DNA of 64,000 bases, taken from NCBI RefSeq assembly GCF_003473485.1, contig NC_053045.1:41458494-41522493 (forward strand). The letters are read 5' to 3'. The position numbers and the translations under genes were made by a program. The notes beneath the pieces were generated by a model. It worked only from the letters and a program-made list of their open reading frames with translations, was not told the DNA's origin and searched no databases. This DNA comes from Medicago truncatula (Eukaryota > Streptophyta > Magnoliopsida > Fabales > Fabaceae). Each line of letters begins with the position of its first letter. The stretch's first letter is position 1. Positions 13,675 to 57,617 of this stretch are shown one piece after another.

Positions 13675-14907
13675 TCAGTCAAAATGTCTGCATGCAAAAT
13701 CATCAGAATTTCCAACGGAATCTTGAGGCCACGAATCCCGAAGAAGCTTTAGCAACAGTTGCGCCTTCCTCTTCGCTCTCTCAGTACAATCACTCTGCAC
13801 CAGAAGCAAAAGCTGAGTCAGCACCCCCGCCGCAACTGCTTCTCGTTGACACCGTTCCGATTCCGAACACAGCGCCATGAGTGCTCCGGCTGCGTACTCC
13901 GTCGCACGATCCGATATCTTTAATATTATCTTCACAAGCATCGGCACCGTGAGAGCATGACCGGCAAACGACGCGCAACCAGCTGGTACACGGCATAACA
14001 ACTCCACCGTTGCTAATGCTCTCTCAGCATCACACTTCTCGAAATCAGCAAGCCGGTCAATAAGTACTACAGGTGCACCGGCGGAAACAGCACGGTGGCG
14101 CGTTTGTTTCACCAAACATAAAGCGAACAAAGCTTTAATTCCTATCTTCAGTGCACGTGGATAGGAGATCGGATTCTTCAATATCTCAACAACACCGTCG
14201 TAGATCCCGTCAACATTGCTCACCTGAAGACGAATCTCCGGCGAGTGAGTTCCGGCGACGATGATTTCAATCAACGCTGCTGAGTTAACTCGAACATCGA
14301 ACGAATCATGTGAAAGAAGACTTGTAAGGTAGTTAATCTTATCTGAATCGGAAGCGAGTGAAGTACATTCTGACTCACTGAGTGGAAATAGAACTATTAA
14401 AGCGAGTGACTCATTTTTTAACTCGTCTAAACCGTTGTTAAAAAGAATAGGTAATATAATATTCCGAACGTTGAGAGAGGATATAAGAGAACGGTTATAC
14501 TCCGAGTCACGAGTTAACGATCTGAGTCGCCGGAGCGAGTTGAGACGTAGTTGAGTAGGGGCAGAATGTGAAGATATTTGGTTAAGTAAAGAACGAACAA
14601 GAGCAGCGTCTGCGGGTTGTTTAGGTGTTGGAATCCGCTGAACTCCAAAAGCGCGGTTGGAAACGCACCAATCTTGGATTAAACGGCGGAGGGTGTGATT
14701 TGGTATGAAGGTGAAATCTGTGAGATTGGTCCGGGTAACCGGACACGTCGTGTTACCGGTGTTAACCCACGACTCGATGCTATTTCGGTCGTAGGTTTGA
14801 CCGGTGGAGACGGTCACTGGGTCTCGCATGAGTTCGAGCGAGATTGGACATCTGAAGTGGTAAGGAATTTGAACCCCTAAATCTAATGGTTCTAAACAGC
14901 CACGCAT
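13675..14907 (-). CDS. U-box E3 ubiquitin ligase with ARM-type repeats, PUB25/PUB26-like (410 aa)
   Basis: This predicted plant U-box (PUB) ubiquitin ligase should receive ubiquitin from an E2 on the U-box and select substrates through armadillo-like repeats in the cytosol or nucleus. The U-box spans roughly residues 13-88 (IPYHFRCPISLELMRDPVTV, GQTYDR, W..TGNTTCPVT, IPNHTLRRLIQDWC). The phrase RIPTPKQPADAALVRSLLNQ after it is typical of the PUB25/26/27 group. Helical ARM repeats follow to the end (for example VNSAALIEIIV, GIKALFALCL, YAAGALMALCSE, AKRKAQLLLKLL). The frame is intronless and full length, as in PUB22-27 of Arabidopsis. The second codon is Arg and the start is the only sensible Met before the U-box. 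Codon use is more GC-rich than the surroundings. PUB25/26 relatives act in immunity and cold signalling, but a role here is only inference. Confidence 0.93.
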   Translation of the reverse strand: MRGCLEPLDLGVQIPYHFRCPISLELMRDPVTVSTGQTYDRNSIESWVNTGNTTCPVTRTNLTDFTFIPNHTLRRLIQDWCVSNRAFGVQRIPTPKQPADAALVRSLLNQISSHSAPTQLRLNSLRRLRSLTRDSEYNRSLISSLNVRNIILPILFNNGLDELKNESLALIVLFPLSESECTSLASDSDKINYLTSLLSHDSFDVRVNSAALIEIIVAGTHSPEIRLQVSNVDGIYDGVVEILKNPISYPRALKIGIKALFALCLVKQTRHRAVSAGAPVVLIDRLADFEKCDAERALATVELLCRVPAGCASFAGHALTVPMLVKIILKISDRATEYAAGALMALCSESERCQREAVAAGVLTQLLLLVQSDCTERAKRKAQLLLKLLRDSWPQDSVGNSDDFACRHFD

Positions 14908-15044
14908 TTTTTTTTTTATTTGGTTATGGGACAGAAGAGGAATGAGGTTTATAATAGGAGAGTGAGTACTAGTATAGTACGAGAAAATATAATAATGCTA
15001 AATGTGAAGGCTCTGAAAATTCTCTTTAGCTAAGTTGTGTGTGT

Positions 15045-32862: not shown

Positions 32863-35800
32863 TCACAATGCCAAGAGCATTGTCAAAATAGTAGTGGCAA
32901 AAGACAACAATAAAATAGCTGGCTTGCAATTTAGAATGCCAAAGCTGGATTCTAGTGTTGCTTCACGGAAAGGAGTTACTTCAGCCTCAGGTAACTCACA
33001 TGATGCTCCAAATGTCATGTTTGCCTGTGCAAATCAAAAACCAAAATTCAGTATACGCTAATAACATAGAAGAGAATGAGAGTAACGGCTACAAACCTTG
33101 CAGGAGGCTATGTTTCCACATCCACATACTAGATGGCCATTAGCTACATCAACTGCTTCTGGAGCTCCTCCTCCATCACTCCTCTAAAACATCAATGTGA
33201 CAGAAAAATGTTGATTATTTTTACTAGCATATCACAACAACCTTGCTTTATAAATTGGAAATATCAATTCAAAAGCTAGTTTTAGTTTATCATAAGCTAA
33301 TTAATAATATGCCACCTTGTAGAAATCAACAGCAATGAAATTAGGCCAACGCTTGCCAGCAGCTTGATAGCAAGTGTTGACCATATCAAGCAAAGGAGCT
33401 GAATTATCCTTGCAAGATTGAGTTACATCTGGAAGATCCTTAAAGAAGTTCACTAGGACTAATGATCTTGACGTTGTGTTCATAGACGGTGATTCTGCGC
33501 GATTCGGACATGAACCAGCCTTCATTCCTCCATTTGAATTTCCATCTGCAAAAGTGAAAATTGCACTCTCAAACTCCATTTACCATTTACGGATATACAA
33601 CTGAAATATTGTTACTAACTATGAAGAAATGACATAGATACTGATACCTGACACGTCACAAACACAGGCACTTAGACACAAATAATAGTTTAAATAATGA
33701 AAGTGATTGAATGTAACCGCATGTGTCAATGTCGGTGTTGATATTGGACACCGACATGTGTCAGACACCAAATAGGCAAATACGCCTTCAATTCGAGGTA
33801 TCAGTGCTGCATAGGTTACCAGTACCAAGGTTAACTTAAATTTTTGGAACTTGTACTTACATTGGTTTTCTACTAAATATCGCCACTCATACGCAATCCC
33901 TTCAGAAGCTTCCTTAGCTGCTTTTGAAGTGAAGACTACTAAACGCTGGTTCTTCTGGACCATATCATCTACCGTTGGCCAGTCTCCACCATTTTTCGGC
34001 ATTCGAGATACCGGAAACCAGTATTTTCTCAGCCCAGCAGCATTAAACACCTTTGTTAGGCCTTTTGGTGAAGTAACATAATCCTCGATAATGATAGTAA
34101 CAATCTCTGATGGATTTGCTTCAAGAAATACTTGAATCTCTTTTAGAACATTGATGGCAGGTTGCTGCATTGTTCACATTTTGGATAACTATTATTAATT
34201 ATGAAGTAAAAGCATAACCAGATTTCATATTCACAGAGAAATCAAGCTAAATGTCCAAGATGTGTTACTTACAAAAGCTGTGTAGTTGTAGCATTGGCCA
34301 CCAAATGAGTGACACAGCCAAACATCATTCTCAAAGTCATACAAGTCAAGCATCAATCCTCGTACACCATTCTGAAAGAAAAATGTTAAATATAAGCTTA
34401 AGGTACCAAAAACTGAAATCATTTATATCCTCAAAAGTTGTAATAGCTTAACTTTCTGTTAGGAATTGGACAATTAACAGTTGATAACTTCACTTTGTAA
34501 TATGCATATATTGATCAGTGTAATGAGGTATGTGAATAATCCTCATCAAGTCATTAATTGTGGCCAAGTTATGAAATGAAGTTATTTTTATTGTTTAGGT
34601 CCCGTTTGGATTGACTTAATTTTGAGTTTATACAAAACAACTTATGCAAATTTATAAGCTTCAAGGTATTATTCATAAGTTAGTCAAGGTAGTTTATGAA
34701 AAAACAGCCCACGAATATACAATTTTCGTTAGTGAGAACTTATGAACTAACATAAAAACTTATTCATAAGTTAAAAAATAAGCTAATCCAAACTGGCCCT
34801 AAGTTTGACTTATTTGAGCTTATCTAGTGACATAAGTACTTGTGAGAGTATTTGAGAGAGCTTATGAAAACAAATTGTGACATATCCATAAGTTGTTTTC
34901 AGCTTATTTTCATAAGCTCTCAAAAATAATTTACGAAAACAACTTGTAGATTATATAGAAACGGTTTGATTTTATTTTATCTTTTATTGTAGAACTAACT
35001 TATGCAAAACCATTTATGCTAAAAGCACTTAATTAAGCTGTTCATCCCAACATCATGAAATTACAAGTCTTCACATTTATTTTGCTTATGTTTGAACTTT
35101 GACCAATAAAGTTTCTTCCTAGCTAGATTTGATCACTTCAAAACAATTATCCAAAAACAGATGATGTTATTTATTTAATCGGTCTTCATCAACATGTCCC
35201 AACATGTCATTAAAAAACTACAAACAAGAAAATAGTACCATTTCATACTATGATACTAAGTCTCTAACTAATCCAACAAAACAAGTAATTAACTAATTAA
35301 TTGAACTATTCAACCATGTAAAAAAATCTTAGTTGTTGTTCAGTCAATTTAAAATATAATCTCCCATAATCACACATGCATCACATTCTCGAACTAAACT
35401 ATCATATATAGTGAATTATTATTCTCCAACAACCTAACAACCACTTTCAGACCTTTTCAATTAAAAAACAGAAAGTGGGGACATTGTGTTCTGATGCAAT
35501 ATTCAGAAAGCACAAGCTTAGCTTTCTCGGTAAGAAGGCTCAGACGTAACATAATGAGAGTCACGACAAATGATCATCTAACTAACATATGCTTTAAGTT
35601 TCAATGAGGATTCTTATTCTTTTCACTTTCATTTTTCTCAAATTTAAAACTTTCCTAGAAACAACTAAATATTATATGCTTGAAAATCGAGGCTAAAGAT
35701 AGTTTATAAACACCCATGTTCCTTTAACCACCCAAACATCTTTTACAAATGACAAAACCACGAGGACTTATACAAGACCCAGAGGGGACAATACCTAAAA

Positions 35801-37454: not shown

Positions 37455-38008
37455 TCTATTATCTATATAAGAAAACAAATGCCTATCAAAAATGCACAAC
37501 TGTCCCTCCTTCTACATTTTTAACTGCACTGTAAGTTCACTTTATTGAAGGATAACATGGTAATAAAATTTGAAATGGGAGAACCCTGAGTTTTTTACCA
37601 CACTGTGACATTTCTAACCTCTTCATTACACTATTGATTCACTTTTATTTAAGGTTAAATGTGTAACATAAGGTATCATTGTTTCACTCTGATTGATTTT
37701 TTCTAACTACGACATTTCTACCCTTTTAGCATCTATTATCTATATAAGAAAACAAATGCCTATCAAAAATGCACAACTGTCCCTCCTTCTACATTTTTAA
37801 CTGCACTGTAAGTTCACTTTATTGAAGGATAACATGGTAATAAAATTTGAAATGGGAGAACCCTGAGTTTTTTACCACACTGTGACATTTCTAACCTCTT
37901 CATTACACTATTGATTCACTTTTATTTAAGGTTAAATGTGTAACATAAGGTATCATTGTTTCACTCTGATTGATTTTTTCTAACTACGACATTTCTACCC
38001 TTTTAGCA
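37455..38008 (+). repeat. Tandem duplication (2 x 277 bp) of the Helitron 5' terminus
   Basis: 37455-37731 and 37732-38008 show no difference by eye along their full length. Each begins with the terminal TCTATTATCTATATAAGAAA. The junction shares ATCTA with the sequence following copy 2 (ATCTACC), a 5-bp microhomology that could have produced the duplication. Confidence 0.85.
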
Positions 38009-39067
38009 TCTACCAAGTGCAAAATAAGAAGGAGGTTGAATTTGTAAATAGTAAGGGATTGCATGGTTTCAGGGTATTGTGCTGACAAAGCCTTCTATTG
38101 TCCAACGGATAAATTGAATACAGTCTATTACCCGCTCAAATCAACGCTATCAATCTGAGGGGTGGTATTACTTCTTTTTCTCTCAAAACTTCTTCATACT
38201 CTTTATCTCATAACTTCTTCACTCTTTCTCTCAATACAAACTCTTGCAAGGTTCAACTTTTTCACTTCTCAACAGGTAATTCTTAATCAGTAATGCATCT
38301 ATTTTCATCAATTTTTCAATTCTTCTTATGTTATAACAGATCGATTGACAGGCTGTTTAAAATGGGATTTACAAATTTTGTTCCAATACTTCAATTTGTT
38401 TATTTGTTTTGGTTATGTTTATTGTGAATTTAGGGATATTTATCTAAGAGCTATTATGAATTGTGAATTTATGGTTAGATTTTTTTTATTTTCATTGTTT
38501 GTTTTGATTATTTGGTTTGATTATTTTTCCAAACTTTTGATGTTTTGTATCACTTCATGCTCGTGATTTGTGTTTTTTCACTTCAAGGTTCTATTTTTAT
38601 TAAGATTCAATACCAAAAATAAGTTTTTCTTTTGTTGATTTTCAATACTGATGTGTTTAAAATCATGAAAAAGGATTTTTTAGTTGATTCTGTTTGTATT
38701 TTTTTCCAAAATCTTAGATGTTTTGTATCACTTCATGCTCTTAGTTGTGATGTGTTTAAGTTTCAGAAAAAGGTTGTGTTTTTTTTATGGGTTTTTAGTT
38801 GTCATGTCTTTAAAATCATGAAAAAGGATTTTTTTTTTTTTTGCTGATTTTGAGTTGTCATTTTTTTGTGCACTTCAAGTATGTTTAGCATCTTTAAAAG
38901 GGCAAACAGAAAAGAATAATAATCTACATGCCTAGCCATCTTAATCAAACGGTTTGGTTAACAAAAAAAACCAGCCTAGCCATTTTTATGTTTATAGCAT
39001 TAGTAGAACTGTCAATACAAGGTTATTGTTTTATTATGGACTTAATTTTGTTGTTTATCTATGAAGA
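38009..39067 (+). promoter_or_regulatory. Helitron-internal promoter and leader of the RPA-like gene
   Basis: No coding domain. CT-rich leader-like sequence at 38170-38270 ends TCTCAACAG|GTAATTC, a possible 5'-UTR donor. Further down, phrases with GTTTAAAATCATGAAAAAGG and TGTTTTGTATCACTTCATGC are repeated two or three times (38540-38830), suggesting internal short duplications. The exact transcription start cannot be set. Confidence 0.4.
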
Positions 39068-41633
39068 ATGGAAGATGATGAAGAGGTCGCTCGTGGTTTT
39101 GATAAGATAACAGACATTGATCAGAGTAAAGATGTGTGGGTCCTTGCTGTGAGGATTGTTGATCTTTGGCCGGTTATTGGCAAATACAAAAGTGAAAGTC
39201 TTGAAATGATCATTAAGGATGCTGAAGTAGGCTTTTCTTTTCAGTCTATTTCATTCTTTCAATAACTTCATTTCAATATCGCTTTACTGACTACTTCAAA
39301 ATTTACAACCATACAGGCTGATGTAATTCATATTACGCTCCCTAAAGAATTTCTCAATGCATTTAAACCTCAGCTGTTTTTGAACCAAACTTATGAAATG
39401 GAGAACTTTAAGGTGAGCAACAATGACAGCGTTGTCAAGGCCTGTGATCATCGATTTAGACTCACAATCACAGGTGCCACTGTCATTAGCAAGCAAGATT
39501 TTCCAGACATCCCTATGGCATCCTTCAACTTCAAGGACTTTGGTGAAGTCCTGGATGGTAAATACAGGCCAGATTTGGTGGTTGGTGAGTATTTCGCTTC
39601 AATGATACCCTTTACGTTTCAATTTATCCGATTTCTGATATATGTTTTTGCTAATCATAAGATGTCATTGGAGCCTTTCAAGATGTGACAAATACTAACA
39701 GGGGAAATGGGAGATTAAGATCAATTACTTTTACCCTCAAAGATGCTAGGTAAATAAATTGAATTACTCATCTATTGAATATGTTGGCTTATTTTAAATT
39801 TACATATGCAATATAGCAGTACTATTGTTCTTGACTGTTGCTTCACATGTGCTTTGATAGTGGCAATATTCTTCATTGTTGCTTGTGGGATGACCATGCC
39901 AAGCTGTGTGCCGATGAATTCGACAAATTTGATGGAACTCAACCTCAACCATTTGTTATACTTGTCAAACATGCAAGGGTTAAGCCGGAACAAGGTACCT
40001 ACATATTTATCAATTCGTTCAAATATTTTCATCTAAGATATTCGACCAATTGGTAACCTAAAAAGATAATTATTTGCAGCTCCTTACCCACTTTGCTTCA
40101 CAAATACTTGGGATGGAACTCGAGTTATGTTCAATCCACCTTTACTAGATGTTGCGCTGTTCAAAGAGAAGTATGTTTCAATATTTTGTATCCCGTACAT
40201 GCTCAATATTTTGTGAATCTTTTATATTGCTTGATTTATGTTTGTTTTGACTTAGGTTTAAAGATCTTCCATCAGATGCTCTTTCCTTATCTCAAACTGC
40301 TTCCCAATACAGTCAGGCCTCCCAATTTTCACAAAATACTGATATAATGTCTAATGCCAAATTTCTTAGTCTTGCTGAGATTTCTAATATCAGTCAGGTA
40401 CTTTTTCAGCACTATTATCTTCTGAACTACTATCCATATTTTATTCTTTCTCACAGTTATAGACTTTTGAGTACAGGAGTTGTCATGTGTCACCGTTGCC
40501 GAAATCATAAAGTTAAATGCTACAAGACATGGTTGGACTTATGATGGATGCAACCAATGCACTAGAAGTGTCAAGCTTGAAGGTGATAAGTGGATGTGTT
40601 ATCATAAACATAAAAATGATGAGCCATTGCCAAGGTATGGTGTATTGAAATATCACAGCCAATTAATGATTTATCACTGCTCATTTTCATAATGCACTGT
40701 GAATTCTACAGACTTTTTTTAACAATAGTATATTGACTATAATCCATTGTTCTTAATCTATTAGATACAAGGTTGAAGTCACTGCTGTTCATAAGGAAGA
40801 AAAAATCAGATTCATCTTCTGGGATGACTTGTCTGCTTCCATACTCAAGATTTCTGCTGCCGAGCTGAGGAAAAAGATGGTTAGGGTGAGTGCTGCATTA
40901 TGTTGCAACATTGTTTTCCTATATTATGCATGAATATTGCTTTTATTCATCCATGTTTAATCTTTAAGTCATATACACTAGGCTGGTCATACCAATCCAC
41001 GCACGTATCCAAAAACTCTTGATAAATTGCTACAGAAGAAGAAGGTTTTTAAAATTAAAGCGCTGCCAGGAGGAAATCCATGTTCGGTTCTCCAAGTTAG
41101 TGACAGTGAACCACTTCTGGCAAATCTGGAGAAACAATTTGGTTTGGTCGAGGTAAAATCTATACACATTTATGTATATTTCAATCCACTTTCAAAGTAT
41201 TTACAATTATTTACACTTCCTCATTTCCATACAGGCATCTTCAAGTAAGGAACCTCTTGGACTTGAGATGGCCGATATTGGAACTTCGAGTAAGCAAAGT
41301 GTCAGTCTTGGTTTTCTAGAGTTGTCATCCAAGGATACTTCTATGGTTGCTGTTGTAAGTCCCTACATCATATACATCTTTCTATCCCTCCTATATAGTA
41401 TTAGTTGTGTGATCAGAATTTTGATTTCCATTCTCACTATTGTACAGGAGTCTCTTTGCGGAGAAAACGATCTAAGTGTAACTTCTTCTACTCCTCCGGC
41501 CAAAAGACTCTCCATGGATGACACTGATTCTGAAGTCGTACCTGCTACACAAGATGTGCAGCCTACTCAACGTTCAACTACCAAAGTTACTAAGCCTCCA
41601 AGGAATACCAAAACTCCAAAGACCGAGCGCTAG
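39068..41633 (+). CDS. Helitron-borne replication protein A 70-kDa-like ssDNA-binding protein, 11 exons, 545 aa
   Basis: Exons: 39068-39226, 39317-39584, 39662-39749, 39861-39994, 40080-40170, 40256-40397, 40477-40634, 40765-40885, 40982-41152, 41235-41354, 41448-41633. All phases agree and give 545 codons without a stop. OB-fold stretches occupy roughly residues 15-235 (KDVWVLAVRIVDLWPV, YRPDLVVDVIGAFQDV, ILHCCLWDDHAKLC). A Ser/Gln-rich linker follows (about 250-280), then the C-terminal OB-fold with a zinc-finger-like C320, C323, C336, H338/H340 set in YDGCNQC..KWMCYHK. The tail is Lys/Thr/Pro-rich (TKVTKPPRNTKTPKTER). It presumably coats single-stranded DNA produced during Helitron replication. 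It resembles host RPA1 but is shorter. The same family left a fragment in the Helitron at 2753-6696. Confidence 0.87.
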
Positions 41634-42669
41634 ATGTTTTCCTCATATGTGTTCTATCAAGAACCACACAGGCTGATATTTATGACATTACTATAATGCC
41701 ACCTTTTGGACTATAAACTATGTTTAACTTTGATATTTTGTTGGTTGAATGTCTTGAGGAACCCCTCATGGAACTCAATTATCCTTTATTATCTTATCTA
41801 TTACCTACTCAGACAATTACCTTACTAATATTTCAGCTTCAATGTTGGTTGAATGCCACTCAACTCATTCATGACTATTATTTACCATCAATCTTATATA
41901 TTCTCACTGTGTCAATGTTTATATATGTTACTGCATGATTGATTATGCGCTAATCTCACTTTTAAGGAAAATGTTGAACCAATTATATTGAAAATTCATC
42001 ATATTGTCCTCTTAAATGAGATGTAAAATTCAAATTACCATAAATAACCTATTTCACTAACAACCCTACCTTAATTCTGGAATAATCACTTCATTCCCTA
42101 CAATTTCAACTCTTTATGATGCAGTTTGTTAGTCAATAAATAATCACTTTACTCTAGCTCCATTCTCCTAGGACTTCTTAAGTACATACTACAAAGGTAA
42201 CATACTTACTTTATCTTCCAAACTATTATAATATTATCACATTTGCTAATTACCACTTTTTCCTTTCTCATTTTCAAACTAGGAGTCCAAATATTACTTT
42301 ACAGCACTGATGTGACAGTAGCAGACTAACAAAGGATCTATAACCACACTAGCTATTTTTTCCTAGGACTTCTCAAGTACATGCTAAAAAGGTAATTCAT
42401 TTATCTTGCAATGTATTATAATATTATAAAACTTACTAATGACTTCTTTTAACTTTTTCACTTTCAAATTTTGGATTCAAATTTCATTTTTAAGTTGGAG
42501 GGAAGCCACTTTTCGTTTCAAATTTCATTTGAAATTTTTACCTTCTTTTCCATTTCAAAATACAGGATAAGTGCACAACTTCATAAAACACCTTCTTATT
42601 TTAGCTTAAGTAATACCATTATCATATTGCATTATCTTTCTCAACTTCTGAAATTAACTATACTTCTCA
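41634..42669 (+). other. Spacer between RPA-like and Rep/helicase genes
   Basis: No coding domain. The phrase TCCTAGGACTTCTTAAGTAC..CTACAAAGGTAA near 42170 recurs as TCCTAGGACTTCTCAAGTAC..CTAAAAAGGTAA near 42361, a diverged direct repeat of about 190-bp period that probably contains the helicase promoter. The sequence before 42670 has no recognisable TATA box within 40 bp. Confidence 0.4.
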
Positions 42670-45600
42670 ATGGAGGATGAAGATGATACAACAAGAAAGA
42701 ATAAAGCATCTTTAAGAAGATTGAGAAGAACAAATTATCTGAAACAAAGGATCCAAAAGAGAGCCAAGCTTGACATCAATGTTACAATCCAACGTACCCC
42801 TTTTGCTAATATCACTAACAATAATCTTCAATCAAATTTGCAGCAATCAAAACAAGGCAAAAAAACTAATCGGACTACTCAAATCACTCCTTCAACCAGT
42901 AACTACACTCCTAAACATCCATTTAACATAAACATTCCAAACATGTATCGTGATTCTTTTGGTGTCATTGGTTCTGTGATAAACAGTAACATTCAGACAC
43001 CAATGGGGAACCAACCTGTTTTTTCACTTAATGACAACACACCTCCACTTAGGCCAATATCATTGTTCAACAGAATACCTTATGACATAAATACCAACGG
43101 AAAAACACCGCTGCCAACACCAAACATTTTTTATCCTGAAACTCTTCCAAATTACACACAGCCAACGTCATCAACTAATTTTCAAATGCCCAAAAGAACT
43201 CCAAAGTTATTGAATCAACAAGGAGTAAACTTGATGAACAGGTTTTCTGAAGTTGACACAGACAAAGCTTCATCTTCAGGAGTCAATGATCAAATACCAA
43301 ATCCAATTGGAAGTTCTGATGATGATACAAGTTCTATTGATACTGAAGAACAAGCAGCCTTCATGTCACATCATGAATCTGAATCTAACAGCAGTGAAGA
43401 TGAAGATGAGGTTATGTCAATCAATAACAATACACAACTTCCAAATTTAGAAGCAGGTAATGTTATCAATATCCGTTGTTACAACAACCTCATTATTATC
43501 TTTTATATGCAATATAACTTTAACAACTATTTATTATTATCTCAGGTTATTCTGATATTGGTGATCCTTCTTTTGAATGTCGTAAATGTGGTGCATGCAT
43601 GTGGTACCAAGAACGTAGGAGGAAGTCAAGAGAAAGTTCTAATCCTGAGTTTGGAATGTGTTGTGGCAATGGAAAAATTCAAATACCTTTCTTGCCAACA
43701 CCTCCTCCGTTATTAAATGATCTTATGTTCAACAATTATTCAACTGAAAGCAAACAATTTAATCAGAACATAAGATTATATAATAGCATGTTTGCATTCA
43801 GCTCACCTGGATTTAAGGTTGATAAGGGAGTTATACCAGGGAGAGGTCCACCAACTATCAGAATTCAAGGCCAATCATGTCACCGAATGGGAAGTATGAT
43901 TCCTGCTGCTGGAAAGACTCCAAAATTTGCACAGCTGTATATATTTGATACAGATAATGAATTGCAAAATAGAGTTCAAGGGATAAGGTATAATTTTCAG
44001 AAAATTTTCTATCTTTTTAGTTTTCAATGTATTTTATTAATTCAATGTATAAATTAAACCACCCTTATGTTTCAGGAATCCTAATCTCAATATGCAAACT
44101 GTGTCAAAGTTGCAACAGATGCTTGATGACACCAACTGCCATGCTAAATCGTTTAGGAAAGCTCGTGATAGATTAAGGCAAGGCAATGTTGAGAACTTAA
44201 AGTTAAAGCTCATATCAGATAGAACAACTGATGGAAGGATTTATAATCAACCTACTGTCTCTGAAGTAGCAGCTTTGATAGTAGGTGATGTTGACTCTGC
44301 AGCAAGAAGAGATATAATTATGGAGAGGCAAAGTGGTCGTTTAGAAAGAATTGATGAGTTCCATCCAGCATATCTTGCATATCAATATCCGCTGTTGTTT
44401 CCTTATGGTGAAGATGGATATAGAGATGATGTTCTTCACCGAGGCATCGTTGCAGGTAAACAATCAAAGATGGATCGACTAACAATAAGAGAATGGTTAA
44501 CATTTAGACTTCAATCAAGGAAAACAGAAGCTATGACAATATTGTGTGCAAGGAGGTTATTTCAGCAGTTTTTGGTAGATTGTTTTACAATGATGGAGGC
44601 TGATAGATTGAAATGGTTGAGGAAAAACCAGTCCAAGTTAAGAGTTGGGAAATACAGAAGTTTGAGTAACAACCAAGGCAATGTAGATGGCCAGACTAAA
44701 AAGCAGGGTAAGAGAGTTGTATTGCCGTCAAGTTATGTTGGTGGTCGTAGGTATATGGATCAACTTTATTTTGATGGTATGGCCATTTCAAGTGATGTTG
44801 GGTTTCCCGATTTATTTATCACTTTCACGTGCAATCCAAGTTGGCCTGAAATACAACGCTTTGTTGGTGCAAAGGGTTTGAAACCACACGACCGACCAGA
44901 CATCATAGCAAGAGTTTTCAAAATTAAGTTTGATGAACTTCTCAATGATTTGACAAAAAAACATATCCTTGGCAAAGTAGTTGCATGTAAGTTTTATTTC
45001 TATATATCTCAGTAACTTTCAAAGTTTATTCTATAAACACTGACATAGTTGATTATTCTTTTTCCTATAGATATGTACACAATTGAGTTTCAAAAGAGAG
45101 GACTACCGCATGCTCATATTCTTATATTCTTGCACCCTTCCAGTAAGTATCCTACACCAGATCACATTAATCAGATAATTTCTGCTGAGATACCACACCC
45201 TGAGAATGATAGAGAACTGTACAAATTAGTTGGCACTCATATGATGCATGGACCATGTGGTTTAGCAAAACCATCATCCCCTTGCATGAAAAAAAAAAGA
45301 TAAATGTTCCAAGTTTTTCCCGAAAAAGTTTCAGGCAACCACAGTTGTTGATCATGAAGGTTATCCTGTGTACAGAAGAAGGGATAATGGTAGGCAAATT
45401 ATTAAAAATGGAATCAGCTTGGATAACAGATATGTTGTGCCACACAATCCATATTTATTGATGAAATATCAAGCTCATATAAATATGGAATGGTGTAATC
45501 AATCAAGTTCAATCAAATACTTATTCAAATATATTAACAAAGGATATGATAGAATCACTGCTGCAGTCGTTTCCGATGGCTCAAGTCAATCCAATGTAAA

Positions 45601-48202
45601 TGACAATGCAGATGAGATTAAACAATATCTTGATTGTCGCTATGTTTCACCTAGCGAAGCTTGCTGGAGGATATTTGCCTTTCCAATCCATGGAAGAAAG
45701 CCAGCTGTTGAAAGATTGTTCTATCATTTGTCTGGAGAGCAATCAGTTTATTTCAATGATTATGAGCAAGTGGATGATGTCCTACTAAAGCCTTCTGTTA
45801 CTGAATCGATGTTTACATCGTGGCTTCAATGCAACGCTAAATATCCTGAAGCACGATCTCTTACTTACTCAAAATTTGTGTCCAAGTTTGTTTATGTTAA
45901 ATCTACAAGAACCTGGAAACCAAGGAAAAAAGGATACACAATTGGAAGGTTAATGTGGGTGCCGCCGAGTACAGGTGAAGTCTTCTATTTGAGGATGATG
46001 TTAGCAGTTGTCAAGGGACCAACTTCCTATGAAGATATTAAAACTGTCAATAACATTTACTACGATACTTTTAGGGAAGCATGTTATGCAATGGGCTTCT
46101 TGGGGGATGATAAAGAATATATAGAAGCAATAAAGGAAATGAGTGTTTGGGCAACCGGTGTTTTCATAAGAATACTATTTGTAACTCTGCTACTTACCGC
46201 GACTATGGACAGGCCGGTTCATGTTTGGAATAACACGTGGAAGTGGTTAAGCGATGGTGTTCTATACGAACAAAGACGAGTGGCTAATAACAGAGGTATA
46301 ATTCTACTTATATCTTTTTTTATTATTGAATAATTCTATTCTCATTTTATTATATTCTAATCCTACCAGATTTGGAGCTAACCGATGATCAAATTAAGAA
46401 CTTAACTCTAACATTAATTGAAAAGCACATGGAGAAGAATAGAAGATCTTTAAAGGAATTTAAAGGATTTCCATACCCAACAGATTATGTCATGGAAGAG
46501 CTTGGTAACAGATTGATTTATGATGAGCTTAACTATGATGAAGATGCATTGAAGTTGGAATTCAAAAGACTATTCAGTACTGTAACAGGTAAAGTGCAAA
46601 TACATTGGTGTTATTTCGATATTTCTAACTATCAATTCATAGATTTAATATATATTTTATACAAATTCAGATGAACAAAGAGACATTTATCATAAAATAA
46701 TGTCTGCTGTTAATGGACAAAATGGTGGTGTGTTTTTCTTACACGGTTACGGAGGAACAGGCAAAACATTTATGTGGACAACTTTAGCTGCTTCATTGAG
46801 GAGTCAGGGTAAAATTGTTCTAACTGTTGCAACAAGTGGTATTGCTTCTCTTTTGTTACCTGGAGGGCGAACTGCTCACTCAAAATTCAAAATACCTGTG
46901 CCTTCATTTGAAAACTCAACATGTAACATTGATGGTGATAGCGATCTTGCAAAACTGTTAAAAGTTACAAACTTGATCATATGGGATGAGGCACCAATGG
47001 CTCATAAGTTCTGTTTTGAAGCTTTGGATAGAACTCTAAAAGACATTATGTCCGACACTGCGGACGGTGACAAAATATTTGGTGGCAAGGTCATTGTGTT
47101 TGGAGGAGACTTTAGGCAAATTTTACCAGTTGTGCCAAGAGCTGACAGGTCAGACATTATAAATTCATCAATAAATTCTTCATACATTTGGGATGAATGT
47201 ATTGTTCTAACACTGACTAAAAATATGCGCCTACGATTTAATGTTGGATCATCTGATGCCGATGAGTTAAAGACTTTCTCCGAATGGATACTAAAGGTTG
47301 GTGAGGGAAAGATATCTGAGCCAAATGATGGCATCGTAGATTTTGAAATACCTGATGACCTGTTAATTAAGGAGTTTGATGATCCAATTGAGGCTATTAT
47401 GAAAAGTACTTATCCAAACTTTTTGAATATGTACAACAATCCTGATTATCTACAGCAAAGAGCTATTCTTGCATCAACCATAGATGTGGTTGATAAAATA
47501 AATGACTATGTTCTTTCAATTATTCCAGGTATGCACAATCCTCATTATTGATTGACTTTATGATATACATTCAAAATTACTACATATTCACTAAACTGAT
47601 TCTGTTTTATTCATGAAGGAGAGGAGAAAGAATACTTCAGCTCTGATTCCATAGACAGGTCAGAAGTTAACGATCAATGCCAGTCTTTTCAGTTATTCAC
47701 TCCAGAATTCTTAAGTACATTAAGAACTTCAGGACTTCCAAACCATAAAATTAAACTAAAAGTTGGAACTCCTATAATGCTATTGAGAAATTTAGATCAA
47801 GTAGAGGGATTATGCAACGGTACTCGACTAATTGTTACTAGGATGGCTAATCATGTGATTGAAGCTAAGATCATTTCAGGTAAAAATGTTGGCAACCTAA
47901 CATATATACCAAGAATGTCCATGTCACCTTCTCAATCTCCCTGGCCTTTTAAACTTATCAGAAGACAGTTTCCTATTATTGTATCCTATGCAATGACTAT
48001 AAATAAGTCACAAGGCCAGACTCTTGACAGTGTTGGTCTATATTTGCCAAGATCAGTGTTCAGTCATGGTCAATTGTACGTTGCATTCTCCAGGGTCAGG
48101 ACTAAAGCCGGTCTAAAAATCTTGATTCATGATCTAGAAAAAAAACCACTTTCCAACACCACAAATGTGGTTTACAAAGAAGTTTTTGATAACCTTTACT
48201 GA
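42670..48202 (+). CDS. Helitron Rep/helicase (RepHel), 7 coding exons, one homopolymer frameshift
   Basis: Exons: 42670-43456, 43546-43987, 44076-44986, 45071-46295, 46370-46588, 46671-47528, 47619-48202. Reading continuity requires the A10 run at 45289-45298 to be one base shorter; as printed it stops at once (ATG, A10, GATAA). Otherwise the protein would be about 1,674 residues. Seen in order: a low-complexity Asn/Thr-rich N-terminus, a Helitron-type Cys cluster (CRKCGACMWYQERR, CCGNGK), FHPAYLAYQYPLLFPYGEDG, the HUH motif RGLPHAHIL (H727, H729), the tyrosine motif IKYLFKYINKGYDR, Walker A GYGGTGKT, Walker B IIWDEAP, and C-terminal SYAMTINKSQGQTL and AFSRVRTKAGLKI of the Pif1 family. Known role: nick, strand transfer and unwinding of the transposon. 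Either a sequencing error or a very young lesion inactivates it. Confidence 0.88.
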
Positions 48203-49224
48203 GTAAGTTTATTTCCCTGTTTTCATTAACTTTATTGTCAATATTAACATCAATATATATATATATATATGACTGTTTGTATCATAACAAAAAATTTCTT
48301 TTAATATCATGAAGTTTTCAAATTGTAACTTTTTTTTTTATACACAGATTGATCAACCTCGGTACATGCTTCAATTCTTTTTGGCTACTGATGAACATGA
48401 GCATAACTTGCAATTTTCAATTTTCATGGTAATTATTTTCTACATTTTATATATAATACTCAAATTATATTTTGGCCTCTGAATTGTTAATATAAATATA
48501 ATATTCATATGCTCATCTATGTTATACAAGAAGCCTATAGCATGTGGTCAAATATAACTCAATCAAAATTGGAATAAATATTGAATGAATTGACAAATCA
48601 TATCAACTCATTAATGAGACTAGATGAATGACTTCAACAAGACCACTCTTCATTGATATGTAAAGAATGCCTATAACTTATTACTTTATTGAATACTTTT
48701 GTTTACATAGGGTACACTATTTGCAGTAAAGAATACCTAATGATGGGAACACACACCAAGTTCAGCTGCAGCTGCAGAAACGTGAATCTGCACATGACTT
48801 GGAAATTGTTGCTTTTATATAGCTTTTTGGACTTACCAATGAATTTGTATTGCTGCAAGTTATGTTAACTTTATAGCTTCCTCAGGAATTGTCTTTGGTA
48901 GATGTAGCTTTTACATTTCAACAAACAATGCTTTTCAAGTTACACTCAATGAAATGGCTAATTAAGTTAAATGCATGCCACAATAAGACAAACTCATAAC
49001 TATTTGCTTGCATGCTTATATAGTCCTTTGGAATATTGCGTGCAGACTTTTGACATTTAGCTTCATATAATTTTATACAAAACAAATTATATTATATTGT
49101 TTTTTATTAAACTCAATAACGACAAACAAGATACATCCAAAATTACACATCAAATAATATATTATATATTTTTTTTAATGTAAATACATCTTCACTGCCA
49201 AATCATATATCTCTTCACTACTCA
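48203..49224 (+). other. Helicase 3' flank and B3-gene promoter region in the Helitron
   Basis: No coding domain. A (TA) stretch lies at 48253-48270. Nothing in this interval resembles the B3 or RPA genes; it should contain the helicase polyadenylation region and the first B3 gene's promoter. Confidence 0.4.
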
Positions 49225-50142
49225 ATGGAATCAAGTTCATCATCAATTAGTCAAGTACCAGCCAATGAAAGATCCGTAAATTGTAGCATTGCTCCTTTAA
49301 TGACATCCGAGCCTAATAGACCATTCTTCATAGCTGTCTGCACTGATGTAATACTACTCTTTCTCAATTCATTTTTCCGAGTTTTAATCATCACTTTAGT
49401 AACATTGTTTTATTTATTTGTATAACAGATCATTTGCGAAATAGATCCCCTTTTTGTTGCTGAACACTACGACGAACTAATAGACATCTGGAGCTTGCAA
49501 GATGGTTATGGAAATAGTCATCAAGTTCAATTTAACAAATTGATGCTTATGCCAATGCTTACGGAAGGTTGGCACCAATTCAGATTTTTTTATCATATAA
49601 CTTCAAATCCACTTATGTCTTTCACATATTTGGGTAATAGTACATTCCAAATCAAAATCTTCAATGGTTCTACACCAAAAAATGAATATCCACGATATCA
49701 TAGACATACTACTTCCTGTCTTAAAGATCTCACATTTGATGTAGACATGCCAGACAAAGATCCAATTAGTTCAAAATTGGTAACTCTTCTATCCTTCATT
49801 ATGTTTCTAAATCAATATTTTTTTTTTAACTATTTTTCAAACAAAAATATACATTATTTATTTCTTCCATTTCAGATTCTACCAACAAACCTTGGAAATT
49901 TCCTTCAACTTATAAATCATGAGTACTTAAGACTGTGTGGCACCTCTAACACTATCACTGTTTGCAAACTGATATTCAAAAAAGAAACGATAAATCAAGG
50001 ACCAACTGTCATAATTGGACGTGGATGGAAAGCCTTCTGCTTAACCAATCGAATTTATCCAGAAAGCCTTCTGGAATTTAAATGTGACTCAATCATGGCC
50101 AAAAACATCGTTTCCGTTATGAAAGTATCTAGACGTTATTAA
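49225..50142 (+). CDS. B3-domain (REM-like) DNA-binding protein in the Helitron, 3 exons, 246 aa
   Basis: Exons 49225-49347, 49429-49779 and 49876-50142 (GT-AG, in phase) give 246 codons. Two B3 pseudobarrel domains are visible. The first is about residues 45-120, ending in LTEGWHQFRFFYHI and FTYLGNSTFQIKIF, the classic GW..F....L.F.Y.GN..F.V.IF core. The second is about residues 160-235 with ILPTNLGNFLQ, YLRLCGTSNTITVCKLIFKK and IGRGWKAFCLTNRI..LLEFKC. A short Ser-rich N-terminus precedes them. B3 proteins of the REM type are plant transcription factors or chromatin-associated DNA binders. Here the gene is Helitron cargo in the same orientation as RepHel, and the following gene has the same exon plan. 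A role in the element's life cycle is unknown; capture from the host is the simple alternative. Confidence 0.72.
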
Positions 50143-50634
50143 CTTATAATCTATCATAGATTATTATTGTAGTATTGTTTTTACCTAATTATCTTAATGC
50201 ATGCTTTACTATTGTTCATCAATCAATTATTTATATCAATATTTTTTTATTAGAACCTCTGCAATATGCAATAACATAAGTTGGTAAAAATCTGGCCTTT
50301 TATTCCAAATTCTAGGCCCATTTAACAACTATTATTATTAAATGGTTTGAAAATCCAAATCCAAACACTAGCTAACAAATGGGTGTAGAATCTCAATAAA
50401 AACTCACCTTTATATGCTGCATATAGTCAAGATTCCTGATATAGATTAGATTGATGCACCATTCCATTATTCATACACGTTATCCTACTGCATGAAGGAT
50501 ATTTATCCCAATTTTATATTCTTCATTCTTTATACTTTTTAATATTTTGGTGCTACAAATACACATTGATAGACACTTCAACTATGTGACCAATAACAAC
50601 ATCAATTTTAAGCTTTCATAAAATCATCAACATA
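50143..50634 (+). other. Spacer between the two B3 genes
   Basis: No coding sequence seen. It carries the 3' flank of the first and the promoter of the second B3 gene. CTACAAATACACATTGATAG about 85 bp above the second ATG could be leader sequence. Confidence 0.35.
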
Positions 50635-51491
50635 ATGGCAAACTTCATCACAATGTATCACAATCCTCCCATTGATCATTTTCGTGCCGTAAAGTTATCA
50701 ACTCAGGTAATTTGACCTTAATTACTTAAATGTTTATTCTAAAAGTTTTTTTTTGATATAATGTTTCTACTCATTCTTTTAATATTCTATATAACTATAG
50801 GACCATGTCGAAGTTCAACCTGAATTTGTAGAAAAATACAAAGATGATCTCCAAGACCCATGGAATATTATGAATATGGATGGTGGAATGCACCAAATCA
50901 AATTCAAAATGAGCTTGTATAACCCTACTTTGAAGGATGGATGGGAACCACTCCAACAATATCATCATTTTCCAAACAATGTTGACATTATTTTTGGATA
51001 CTACGGAAATAATCTTTTTAAAGTTATAATGTTCAGGGAAGTATTTTGCGCTACTAAAATACCTTCTTTTCATAGTCGTAGCATGTATCCAGAGGAAGTC
51101 ATTATATTTGATATACACATTTCTGATAATGATTTAAACACTCCAATCAAGGTACGTTATCAATTTATATAGTTCATTTTCATATTTTTCTATATCTAAT
51201 GTTCAGTTTATTTTAAAGTTTTTCGCATGTTTGCCTTTTCAGATGTTGCCCAATCATTTTGGGACCTTTCTTCAGAACGACTTTCGCAGTCTTCTAACTT
51301 TGTGTTGTGATGATGGAACATTTTACTTTGTAGACATTATTCACTACGGTGATTACGTCGACGACCCTAATAGTGGAATTCAATGGAATGATTTCATACT
51401 TAGCAATTACATTGTTGCAGGACAGAAACTTCGATTTAAATTCGATATTAATACTACCTATATGTGTCATGTATTTCCTATTGATGTTTAG
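50635..51491 (+). CDS. Second B3-domain-like protein in the Helitron, 3 exons, 223 aa
   Basis: Exons 50635-50706, 50801-51151 and 51243-51491, in phase, give 223 codons. The start ATG (MANFITMYHNPP) opens a short N-terminus. Exon two is 351 nt, exactly the size of exon two in the gene upstream, and encodes a diverged B3 domain (FVEKYKDDLQDPW, LKDGWEPLQQYHH, FGYYGNNLFKVIMF). Exon three begins MLPNHFGTFLQ, as the other gene's begins ILPTNLGNFLQ, and encodes a second, weaker B3 (IQWNDFILSNYIVAGQKLRF, KFDIN). Protein identity to the neighbour is low, so the duplication is ancient while both frames stayed open. No target or function can be assigned. Confidence 0.62.
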
Positions 51492-51686
51492 TTTTAGCAG
51501 AATGTAACATAACTCATTGACTCCTATGTTCAAATTATTCTATGTATCCTATAATTACCATGTTTTCATACCCGAAGCCTCTACCCAATGAATACCAGTG
51601 TCTCTTTCGCTACGCTTTCAAATTGATTTTTTATTACCACTTCTAATAAATAATAATTTCCCCTTTACGTAATATTTCTCTTTATA

Positions 51687-51871
51687 TTCCATTTCATATC
51701 CTACCACCTAATCTGGGTAATTTTCTCCAATCAAAAAACCATGAGTACTTGAGGTTATGTGGCAGTTCAAATACTATCACTGTTTGCAAATTGATATTCA
51801 AAATCGATCCCGAAAATAATACAACATCTGTGACCATTGCAAGAGGATGGACAACATTTTGCTTGACCATG
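51687..51871 (+). pseudogene. Decayed third B3 copy (exon 3 fragment)
   Basis: Nucleotide similarity to 49864-50050 is obvious by eye: CATGAGTACTT, GTGGCA, AACACTATCACTGTTTGCAAA/AATACTATCACTGTTTGCAAA, TGATATTCAAAA. The frame still reads LRLCGSSNTITVCKLIFKID and IARGWTTFCLT. The acceptor TTCCATTTCAG of the intact gene is TTCCATTTCAT here, and exons one and two are missing. Confidence 0.75.
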
Positions 51872-51910
51872 TGTAATATTATTATTCTCCTCTTTTCTTT
51901 AAACTATATA

Positions 51911-52025
51911 CTACCTCCGGTCCTATTTATAAGAGAAATTTAGGTCAACAAAAGTGAATGTATTTTGACTGAATTTTTAACTAGATACATCAACTTTTGT
52001 AAACCCAAAATTCTCTTATATATCA
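51911..52025. mobile_element. Worn MITE inside the Helitron tail
   Basis: CTACCTCCGGTCCTATTTAT, AAGAGAAATTT on the left pairs with AAATTCTCTTATATAT on the right, but the terminal CTCC-type end on the right side is missing. It interrupts the stretch between the B3 fragment and the Helitron 3' end. Confidence 0.5.
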
Positions 52026-52162
52026 ATTTTTACTAATTTTGTTACCTGATAGCTTTGAAAAAATTTATTCACCAATAGATAATATTCAAGTATTTAATGA
52101 ATAATTAATAAATATTCAAATTATCATTATCAAAGGCAATTATACATAAATTCTATATATCA

Positions 52163-52193
52163 ACCCGTGCGTTAGCACAGGTATTGTTATTAG
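52163..52193 (+). other. Degenerate internal Helitron 3' terminus
   Basis: ACCCGTGC-GTTA-GCACAGGT forms a hairpin with one mismatch. Exactly 12 nt after the GCACAGG arm comes TTAG (TATTGTTATTAG), one base from the CTAG end used at 52389 (TATCTCGACTAG). This looks like an older terminus lying 196 bp inside the present one. Confidence 0.55.
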
Positions 52194-52341
52194 CTACCTT
52201 ACATTGTATACTATTACTTGAATATTTTCCCACATCAATTTAACTGAATACTAAGTGTACATACTTTATACAATTGTACACTATTGTTTTTTTTTTTAGC
52301 ATTGCTCACGCACCTCATAGTACAACGACATAACTTTTGTC

Positions 52342-52389
52342 GCGCGGCGCAGCCGCGCTACCCGTGCTCAGCACGGGTATCTCGACTAG
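52342..52389 (+). terminator. Helitron 3' terminal structure: two tandem hairpins and CTAG
   Basis: GCGCGGC-GCA-GCCGCGC (52342-52358) and CCCGTGC-TCA-GCACGGG (52361-52377) are both perfect 7-bp stems with 3-nt loops, followed by TATCTCGA and CTAG at 52386-52389, then T. The second hairpin is the standard Helitron transposition terminator; the first is an additional GC-rich one. This marks transposition ends, not transcription ends. Confidence 0.82.
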
Positions 52390-55533: not shown

Positions 55534-57617
55534 TCACACAAACAAATTTCGATTTGCAACATCTAATGCTTCTGGAGCTCCCCCACCATCACCTCTCTGA
55601 ATGCACAATCAACTGATCCATTCAATAAAATGTACCAATTTGTAACTTAAAATTAAATTAAATTAAATTAAATTAAATGGTTATAAAATTGTACCTTGTA
55701 AAAGTCTACAGCAATGTAGTTAGGCCATCGGTTACCAGCATCTTTATAGCAAGTATGCATCTTTCGAATCAATGGGGATGAGTTATCCTTACATGCTTCA
55801 TTGGAATTTAGGACATTTCTGTAATAGTTCATTAGGACTAGTGATTTTGTTGTTGTGTTCATTGGATATGATTCTGCTCTATGTAAACAATGATCTCTTC
55901 CCATTCCATCATTTCCATCTGCAATTTCACAAAGTCATTGAAATTGTCATTTACATTTACGGTATATAATCTGATCTTAGCAGAAAATAAGAGGTACTCA
56001 CATTTATTTTCCACAACATAGTTCCATTCATAGGCAATGCGTTCAGAAGCCTCTTTTGTTGCATTTGAAGTGAACACAATTAACCTATGATTCATTCTTA
56101 ACATTTTTTTAACTGTTAGCCAATCACTACCATTCTTTGGCATTTTATATACCGGAAACCAGAATTTCCTCAAACCAGCTTTATTAAACACCTTGTTCAC
56201 ACCATTTGGTGATGTTACACGATCCTTGATGAAAACGGTGACTATCTCAGTTCGGTGTCGTGTGAGAAATGTATTGATCTCTCTCAGAACATTAATAGCA
56301 GGTTGCTGTTCAATAACATCTCATAAATCAAACTCAGTGTTCTAAACAATGTATAAGAAATGCTTAACTTAATCAAGATTTTACCAAATCAAACGAAATT
56401 AGAAGACTATTAAAGAATCTCTTACAAAGGCGGTAAATATTGTGCACGGTCCGCGACACAACCAAATGTCACCATAGTAATCATGCATATCTAACATTAT
56501 TCCTCTCACACCATTCTGCAGCAGAAAATGGCTCATTAAAAGTATAGAAAAAATTTTACTAAGCAAAATTATAGACAGAATTATAAACATAGAACTTTTG
56601 ACACCTATTAGTAAAATGATTGTTCACTGAATTCAAATGTATTAGAAATTTATTTCATTCCCCTTTATTTTGATTCCTAAAGTCTTTTAATTTTAATCTA
56701 TAGTTTCCATATACATAAAACTTTTGACATACACGCAGCTGATCTGTAATGGAGTCTTCCTGGTTCATGACCGACGAAATTTTAGAGTCTATACTCAAGT
56801 TCGCTGCCCTCGAAGCATAAGAGTTGTGAGTTGTAAGCCATGAGTAATGGTTAAATGGAAGCTCCATCACCTACACATGCAAATCATTTATAATAATTAA
56901 TCTTTTACAAAGTTTATTTTAGCAGCTATAGAACATAAATGAAAAATGTATGATGAGGACTAAGGACTTTTGAAATAGGACTTGAAGTTCGGACTCGTGT
57001 ACACCGGCTTTGTGAGTTGCATTCCAGGCACTGCAGCCCCGTACCACAGTCATTGACGTCGCGGGAGCATGTTTCCCCAATCTGTTATGAATTGTTGCTC
57101 ACATGAAACAAAAATATGTCCTTAAAATCTTGATCATAGATTATTTGATGAATTGAAGATGAAGAGAATATACTAACACTTTGCAACTTTTGATATTAAG
57201 CTTTAAGAATCTCAAATTTTTAGGGTTAGGATGAAGTGTTAAAATTTAATTGTGAAATGTCTAGAGTCATGATGCCTTTGTTTATCACATAAATTTCTTA
57301 GTATAAAGTACTATGTATTTAATATGTATGGTTCATATATAAAGCAATTCAGTAAAGAATAAATTTCTTAACATAAGGTAGTATCACTATGTATTTATGG
57401 TTCAAATATGTAAAATTCTTCAACTTTTTAAAGAGTTTTTATATACTTTCTAATGATAATAAAGTACCTGAACAAGTACATAGCAACCAAATACAAGACT
57501 TGCACTAATCAAAGTTGCGATTAGAAGGTAATTCTGCAAGAAAATAAGGATGCAAGAGTGAAATTTATACAATGGTAGAGCATGCAAAATGTAAAATTTA
57601 ATCACACTTACCTCCAT
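55534..57617 (-). CDS. Shortened PI-PLC X-domain-like paralogue, 8 exons, 334 aa, catalytic His replaced
   Basis: Exons on the minus strand: 57617-57612, 57533-57468, 57081-56968, 56870-56733, 56515-56426, 56305-56002, 55918-55695, 55596-55534. Phases agree and give 334 codons plus stop. Exon sizes 6, 138 and 304 equal those of the gene at 32863-36664, and the first exon is again two codons (ATGGAG). A hydrophobic signal follows (YLLIATLISASLVFGCYVLV). The first active-site His is kept (H77 in SWLTTHNS), but the second is Arg (R129 in DIWLCRGPC) and the acidic IIIEDYV strand is VFIKDRV. The protein stops soon after GGGAPEALDVAN, losing the Cys-rich tail and GPI signal. It is probably secreted and catalytically dead, or on its way to becoming a pseudogene. 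Splice borders are all canonical, so expression remains plausible. Confidence 0.75.

Follow-up and report, generated by a model that had tools for sequence, protein, structure and literature searches.

A 64,000-nucleotide stretch of the Medicago truncatula genome (C4:41458494-41522493, hereafter the window) contains a 14.9-kb Helitron that carries, behind its RepHel gene, a gene for a two-domain B3 protein, B3_1. The B3 fold, found in plants, binds double-stranded DNA. Close relatives of the Helitron in the same genome have kept B3_1, which therefore has the look of a functional part of the element, and we consider the gene to be very probably a resident and selected component of this Helitron lineage rather than chance cargo. 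The original prediction, made from the letters of the window, described a Helitron with RPA, RepHel and two B3 genes on one strand and a single frame lesion. This description was borne out by the ends of the element, the splice models and the Pfam profile matches, with one frame break in RepHel. The extent to which the B3 genes form a resident module was assessed by comparison with other copies in the genome (430 Mb, 42 contigs, a single genome).

The region behind RepHel was read in nine of the 11 loci of the clade, comprising the window copy (W) and copies A, B, C, D, F, G, H and I, whilst for loci E (C4:4.52 Mb) and U (C6:31.58 Mb) we have the position alone. All nine copies have a B3_1 orthologue in the interval from RepHel to the 3' end. 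The accompanying B3 genes differed: copy A has B3_2 and the B3 remnant, as in the window; copies B and C carry a different other B3 gene; copy D has one other, and copies F, G and H have two others each; copy I showed B3_1 only, in the 6.2 kb read. It had been envisaged that other copies of the family might lack B3 genes, and in the copies read this was not the case for B3_1. The proposal of a resident module consequently stands for one B3 gene, which was found in nine of nine copies, with B3 coding DNA near 11 of 11 RepHel loci of the clade, and is under apparent purifying selection, but not for the B3 pair. The pair had been put forward as a fixed third component of the element, a view that the data do not support, as the other B3 genes vary by copy and B3_2 lies in a block common with another Helitron.

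Judged by its substitution pattern, B3_1 is constrained during its residence in the Helitron, unless it has been repeatedly redrawn from a constrained host gene. The exons of the other copies were projected from the window model. Coding exons of 123, 351 and 264 nt were obtained in eight of the nine copies, the exception being copy B with a second exon of 350 nt, and the splice sites comprised GT donors in 18 of 18 cases and AG acceptors in 16 of 18. The start, splice sites and frame are all intact in five of the nine copies (W, A, D, F and H). Between subfamilies, the ratio of non-synonymous (dN) to synonymous (dS) divergence was 0.20-0.31 at dS of 0.65-1.15 (NG86 method; eight copies, B excluded). 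Individual dN and dS values by the same method were 0.240 and 0.900 for W-D, 0.228 and 1.066 for W-F, 0.275 and 0.950 for W-I, and 0.183 and 0.648 for D-F. The dN/dS ratio was 0.46 for D-I and 0.31 for W-C, in which C is a damaged copy. Differences between W and D numbered 62, 42 and 97 at codon positions 1, 2 and 3, respectively.

The association of B3 genes with RepHel extends beyond the copies that were read. The helicase search returned 103 matches that were merged into 89 loci; 89 of 1393 candidates were scored, and the counts are lower bounds. The B3_1 search gave at least 169 matches, of which 123 of the 150 listed were used, yielding 68 loci. B3 coding DNA on the same strand and within 12 kb of RepHel was present at all 11 loci with helicase identity of at least 76%, at 5 of 12 loci with 60-75% identity and at no fewer than 4 of 66 loci below 60%. 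The last figure is a lower bound because the B3 gene at C4:31.31 Mb, which was seen in the sequence, falls outside the listed B3 matches. No B3 on the opposite strand was found within 12 kb at any of the 89 scored RepHel loci. In total, 20 of 89 RepHel loci were linked to B3. When the B3 loci were placed at random 1000 times, the mean was 0.154 and no placement gave more than 2; random placement disregards the clustering of transposons, and the RepHel loci of low identity are the better control. Amongst B3 loci with less than 55% identity to B3_1, 8 of 35 were near a scored RepHel. All four of the unlinked B3 loci that were checked have Helitron DNA adjoining them: those at C2:4.70 Mb and C8:25.30 Mb have the 3' end of this Helitron family directly downstream, that at C7:8.75 Mb belongs to a Helitron here called L050, and beside that at C6:21.20 Mb lies a helicase fragment of 73% identity. 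Viewed from the 3' end of the Helitron, which gave 28 matches, B3 lay directly upstream in 11 and was absent there in 17, among the listed B3 matches. No collinear host B3 locus was seen in this one genome, with four of 20 unlinked loci checked. Weak B3 clusters of 23-33% identity occur at C5:24081419-24099124 and C1:27381534-27389589, and may be host arrays and, possibly, distant donors.

B3_1 has not descended strictly alongside its helicase. As dS of the last RepHel exon was undefined for W-I and W-D, fourfold sites were used instead. Copies D and I differ at 3 of 80 fourfold sites in B3_1, at 43 of 97 in the helicase exon and at 11 of 22 in the RepHel tail. A gap-free block of 1251 bp spanning B3_1 is 92.4% identical between these two copies, the RepHel tail being 78.5% identical. 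The near-identity of B3_1 despite a diverged helicase shows that B3_1 was transferred or converted between Helitron lineages. Fourfold divergence between W and copies D, F and I was 0.45-0.47 in B3_1, somewhat below the 0.54-0.61 of the helicase exon.

The second B3 gene of the window has a different history. The match of copies B and C to the window breaks off at 50351 and restarts at 52198, with ~0.4 kb of other DNA between, and almost exactly the intervening stretch of the window (50346-52193) matches L050 at 94-97% identity in four pieces. L050 itself contains an RPA-like stretch (28% identity over the longest piece), three B3 genes and a 3' hairpin followed by CTAG and then T; no RepHel was present in the 8.5 kb read. 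The right edge of the block bears a decayed Helitron 3' end, whilst no TC start was found at its left edge, and the block therefore represents the 3' part of an L050-type element. The ancestor of W and A likely gained B3_2, the remnant and the foreign 3' end as one block, a direction of transfer that we infer. The second B3 gene and the remnant would thus be a composite addition, not half of a fixed pair, and the window copy would combine a B3_1-bearing ancestor with a block from a second B3-bearing Helitron. Within the acquired block, an imperfect inverted repeat at 51925-52023 (39-nt arms, 82% identity) resembles by eye a miniature inverted-repeat transposable element.

By the curated Pfam profile, the B3_1 family belongs to the B3 superfamily. 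Window B3_1 matched the B3 profile in two stretches (E-value 4.9e-7) at 30.0 bits, just short of the 30.1 cut-off, and the orthologues of copies D and F cleared this cut-off with 32.0 and 39.4 bits, also in two stretches each. Exon-2 peptides alone gave a weak B3 profile match in three of eight cases, the best at 0.0018. B3_2 gave no Pfam match at E<=1; it is called B3 because it is homologous to the B3_1 family (26% identity to B3_1) and follows the same exon plan, exon 2 being 351 nt in both genes. The remnant, B3_3, differs from B3_1 with dN of 0.19 and dS of 1.53 (NG86, 60 codons). A sequence search of PDB with B3_1 gave no match at E<=10. The matches of the exon-2 profile to PDB were all weak, with Elongin-C at 0.081, the plant B3 protein At1g16640 at 0.74 and OTOP3 at 1.2, such that At1g16640 ranked below an unrelated protein. 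Structure predictions from single sequences were too poor to use, with a mean predicted local distance difference test score (pLDDT) of 37.5 for B3_1 (exons 2-3, including the open intron) and a pLDDT of 49.3 for exon 2 of B3_2.

B3 genes were also encountered in a second arrangement, ahead of the helicase, at three RepHel loci of a distant group (C4:59.06 Mb, C2:21.36 Mb and C4:31.31 Mb). The B3 gene at C4:59.06 Mb was read in the sequence, and that at C2:21.36 Mb is known by position, ~9 kb away. Two-domain B3-like genes precede the helicase in the stretches L053 (C4:59060500-59066500) and L032 plus L052 (C4:31306178-31316000). The B3 gene at C4:31.31 Mb scored 27.3 bits, under the Pfam cut-off, and the 6 kb upstream yielded no Rep part, indicating that this element is damaged or rearranged. 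In a tree of B3 exon 2 from 12 sequences, the C4:59.06 Mb gene clustered with the B3_1 type with support of 0.971. The link between B3 and Helitrons may predate the clade; alternatively, distant Helitrons may have exchanged B3 genes. Given the small tree, we regard this as a lead.

The Helitron itself is a canonical plant-type element of autonomous layout, and its features are collected in Table 1. The 5' end is a TC at 37455 preceded by A, and the 3' end is a CTAG finishing at 52389, where the next base is T. The 3' hairpin, with a 9-bp stem (TACCCGTGC) and a loop of 3, finishes 10 bases short of the 3' end, and was the sole site at the settings used when both strands of the window were scanned for a hairpin plus CTRR. 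Identical 3' terminal letters, each then followed by T, are present in five copies with differing flanks (W, A, B, D and I). The Helitron unit recurs at several genomic places with differing flanks, and the window copy is the only one that was read end to end, because, in what was read of copy A, unrelated sequence interrupts the element 5' of RepHel. Three features were additional to the original prediction, namely the B3 remnant, the decayed inner 3' end and a tandem duplication of 277 bp at the 5' end. The 277-bp unit is single in the three related 5' ends compared (L003, L004 and L005), and the duplication is therefore recent or an assembly artefact.

All genes of the element share one orientation, in the order RPA-like, RepHel, B3_1, B3_2 and then the B3 remnant, and the spliced models of the four genes have GT-AG introns with consistent phases. 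RPA also stands ahead of RepHel in copies D and F, and the order RPA, RepHel, B3 is thus common to the window, D and F at 75% helicase-exon identity. The RPA-like protein matched the Pfam families DUF223 (8.6e-15; 55.4 bits against a cut-off of 24.6) and Rep_fac-A_C (1.9e-6; 28.2 bits, just under the cut-off of 28.5). RepHel was read as two pieces, one on each side of the frame break, and matched Helitron_like_N (2.8e-61) and PIF1 (2.2e-91). The motifs PHAH and KYINKGYD were read in it by eye, and we take these to be signs of Rep (HUH). The frame break is not universal, since the frame is open at that position in at least one other copy. Direct repeats occur ahead of RPA as well as ahead of RepHel. 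Neither B3_1 nor the second RepHel piece had relatives amongst the viral contigs searched.

Table 1. Features of the Helitron, in positions of the 64,000-nucleotide window
Feature	Position	Strand	Basis
Whole Helitron, TC ... CTAG, inserted between A and T	37455..52389	+	Ends read from sequence and compared with copies
5' terminal 277 bp, present twice in exact tandem	37455..38008	+	Self-comparison
RPA-like gene, 11 exons, 545 aa	39068..41633	+	Splice model, Pfam
Imperfect direct repeats before RepHel, 73-84%, spacing ~190	42151..42490	+	Self-comparison
RepHel, multi-exon, one frame break near 45290-45303	42670..48202	+	Splice model, Pfam
B3_1, three exons, 246 aa, two B3 domains	49225..50142	+	Splice model, Pfam, copies
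Block common with L050 Helitron, absent from B and C	50346..52193	+	Sequence comparison
B3_2, three exons, 223 aa	50635..51491	+	Splice model, homology
B3_3, remnant of third exon of B3_1-type gene, no AG acceptor	51698..51877	+	Self-comparison
Decayed inner Helitron 3' end (hairpin, TTAG)	52163..52193	+	Same hairpin as L050 3' end
3' terminal hairpin and CTAG	52359..52389	+	Hairpin scan

We tentatively propose that the B3 proteins bind the DNA of the element and sustain its expression, as an anti-silencing step. The Helitron would make its own B3 proteins, which would bind its non-coding DNA and, once bound, would keep the Helitron genes expressed against host silencing. The accessory B3 copies, varying by element, would shift the range of DNA bound. 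We count in favour of such own-DNA binding the existence of separate B3 genes, the clade-wide retention, the change of accessory copies and the direct repeats before RPA and RepHel.

Several observations weigh against a resident B3 gene with such a function. Counts of 7- and 8-mers relative to the window flanks revealed no strong motif in the non-coding DNA of the Helitron. Because the region behind RepHel is 99% alike in F, G and H, the nine copies amount to approximately four independent lineages (W/A/B/C, D, F/G/H and I). B3_1 is damaged in four of the nine, with a frame break in B, a lost acceptor and a stop in C, a lost acceptor in G and a lost ATG in I. The swapping of B3_1 between lineages means that B3_1 and RepHel do not strictly share their inheritance. 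The RepHel loci J and K (69-70% identity) had no B3 in the 6 kb behind RepHel, of which ~0.8 kb adjoining the helicase match of K fell outside the stretch read, nor nearby among the listed matches; B3 is therefore not required by all related Helitrons. Amongst B3 loci of at least 55% identity to B3_1, 14 of 33 were near a scored RepHel and 19 were not, and 20 B3 loci of at least 50% identity had no scored RepHel nearby, the surroundings being settled for four of these.

An alternative role, which we regard as unlikely, is that the B3 proteins steer transposition, binding the Helitron ends or the target DNA and aiding RepHel rather than acting on silencing. In its favour, the copies read have B3_1 beside their 3' end and together with RPA and RepHel, and B3 is a DNA-binding fold. 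However, no shared B3-site candidate turned up in the ends, in analyses that included no search aimed at one, and the related Helitrons without B3 also speak against it. Repeated passive capture, in which a capture-prone host B3 family would have been taken several times and the constraint would be that of the host gene, seems improbable. Helitrons often pick up gene fragments, according to passages of one report (PMC4683698), and the loose co-inheritance with RepHel, the weak B3 clusters that are possibly host arrays, and the small share of unlinked loci with settled surroundings all leave room for it. Against this, the nine copies read have B3_1 in the same place, orientation and exon plan, the genes are whole and contain introns rather than being fragments, the four unlinked loci checked sit in Helitron DNA, and the best nameable matches outside a Helitron context are the weak clusters. 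Finally, B3 could be a host-benefit or host-manipulating transcription factor acting on host (for example, reproductive) genes and giving germline access, an improbable prospect in whose favour stands the description of plant B3 proteins as developmental regulators.

To our knowledge, few Helitron accessory genes have been described, these being RPA in plants and others in animals. Passages of PMC4683698 report that Mothra and its sister Helitron families of rice carry an additional RPA gene besides RepHel. The RPA-bearing plant Helitrons described there share with our element the TC start, the hairpin plus CTRR, the insertion between A and T, RepHel and RPA, and RPA offers a precedent for an acquired gene that turned resident. 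The element described here differs in that RepHel is followed, ahead of the 3' end, by a resident two-domain B3 gene and by other B3 genes that vary. The same passages describe gene capture by maize Helitrons, which is alike in that host-type genes lie inside Helitrons; in contrast, we observe one complete gene that is common to the clade copies read, with signs of purifying selection. With the plant B3/REM proteins, represented by At1g16640 (1yel), the B3_1 orthologues have the Pfam B3 domain in common, here in two stretches per protein, whereas the present proteins are transposon-encoded and only distantly similar (profile E-value 0.74). An insertion involving a maize RAV-like B3 gene is mentioned in PMC1657028, in a passage that does not label the B3 gene as a Helitron component. 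In the open-licence literature searched (titles and the starts of abstracts, with few subscription journals and no Repbase reports), no B3 genes were described as components of Helitrons. RPA-bearing Helitrons were already known, and a B3 gene as a resident component would be the new part.

The closest functional comparison is with the VANDAL transposons of Arabidopsis, which are MULE-type elements and not Helitrons. VANC is a transposon-encoded anti-silencing protein whose targets are often arranged in tandem and differ among related elements, as set out in passages of PMC5735166. The likeness to VANDAL/VANC (PMC5735166, PMC10398659, both in part) lies in a DNA-binding accessory protein that varies between elements and in non-coding direct repeats. 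The difference is that anti-silencing is reported there and inferred here, and that no enriched motif accompanies the B3 genes. We speculate that the B3 fold could have been co-opted as an anti-silencing or self-activating factor of Helitrons, with B3_1 as its core and the variable B3 copies traded between elements, as an independent counterpart of VANC. A selected, exchanged DNA-binding gene is a concrete candidate for the means by which plant Helitrons evade silencing. The window copy, a Helitron carrying the 3' gene block and old terminus of another, bears on how Helitrons gain genes. In addition, some of the genes annotated as B3 in genomes of this kind may belong to transposons.

Some minor observations concern the surroundings of these elements. 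An open reading frame (ORF) behind the RepHel of copy J (L043, 1287-2096, minus strand) appears cytochrome P450-like by eye. In the window, two ORFs on the minus strand that resemble each other, at 33619-34173 and 55859-56320, flank the Helitron; we presume from inspection by eye that they are PLC X-domain-like. As similar ORFs lie on both flanks, the Helitron seems to be placed between host paralogues. A further ORF of 440 aa at 13675-14997 on the minus strand resembles by eye what we take to be a U-box/ARM E3 ligase.

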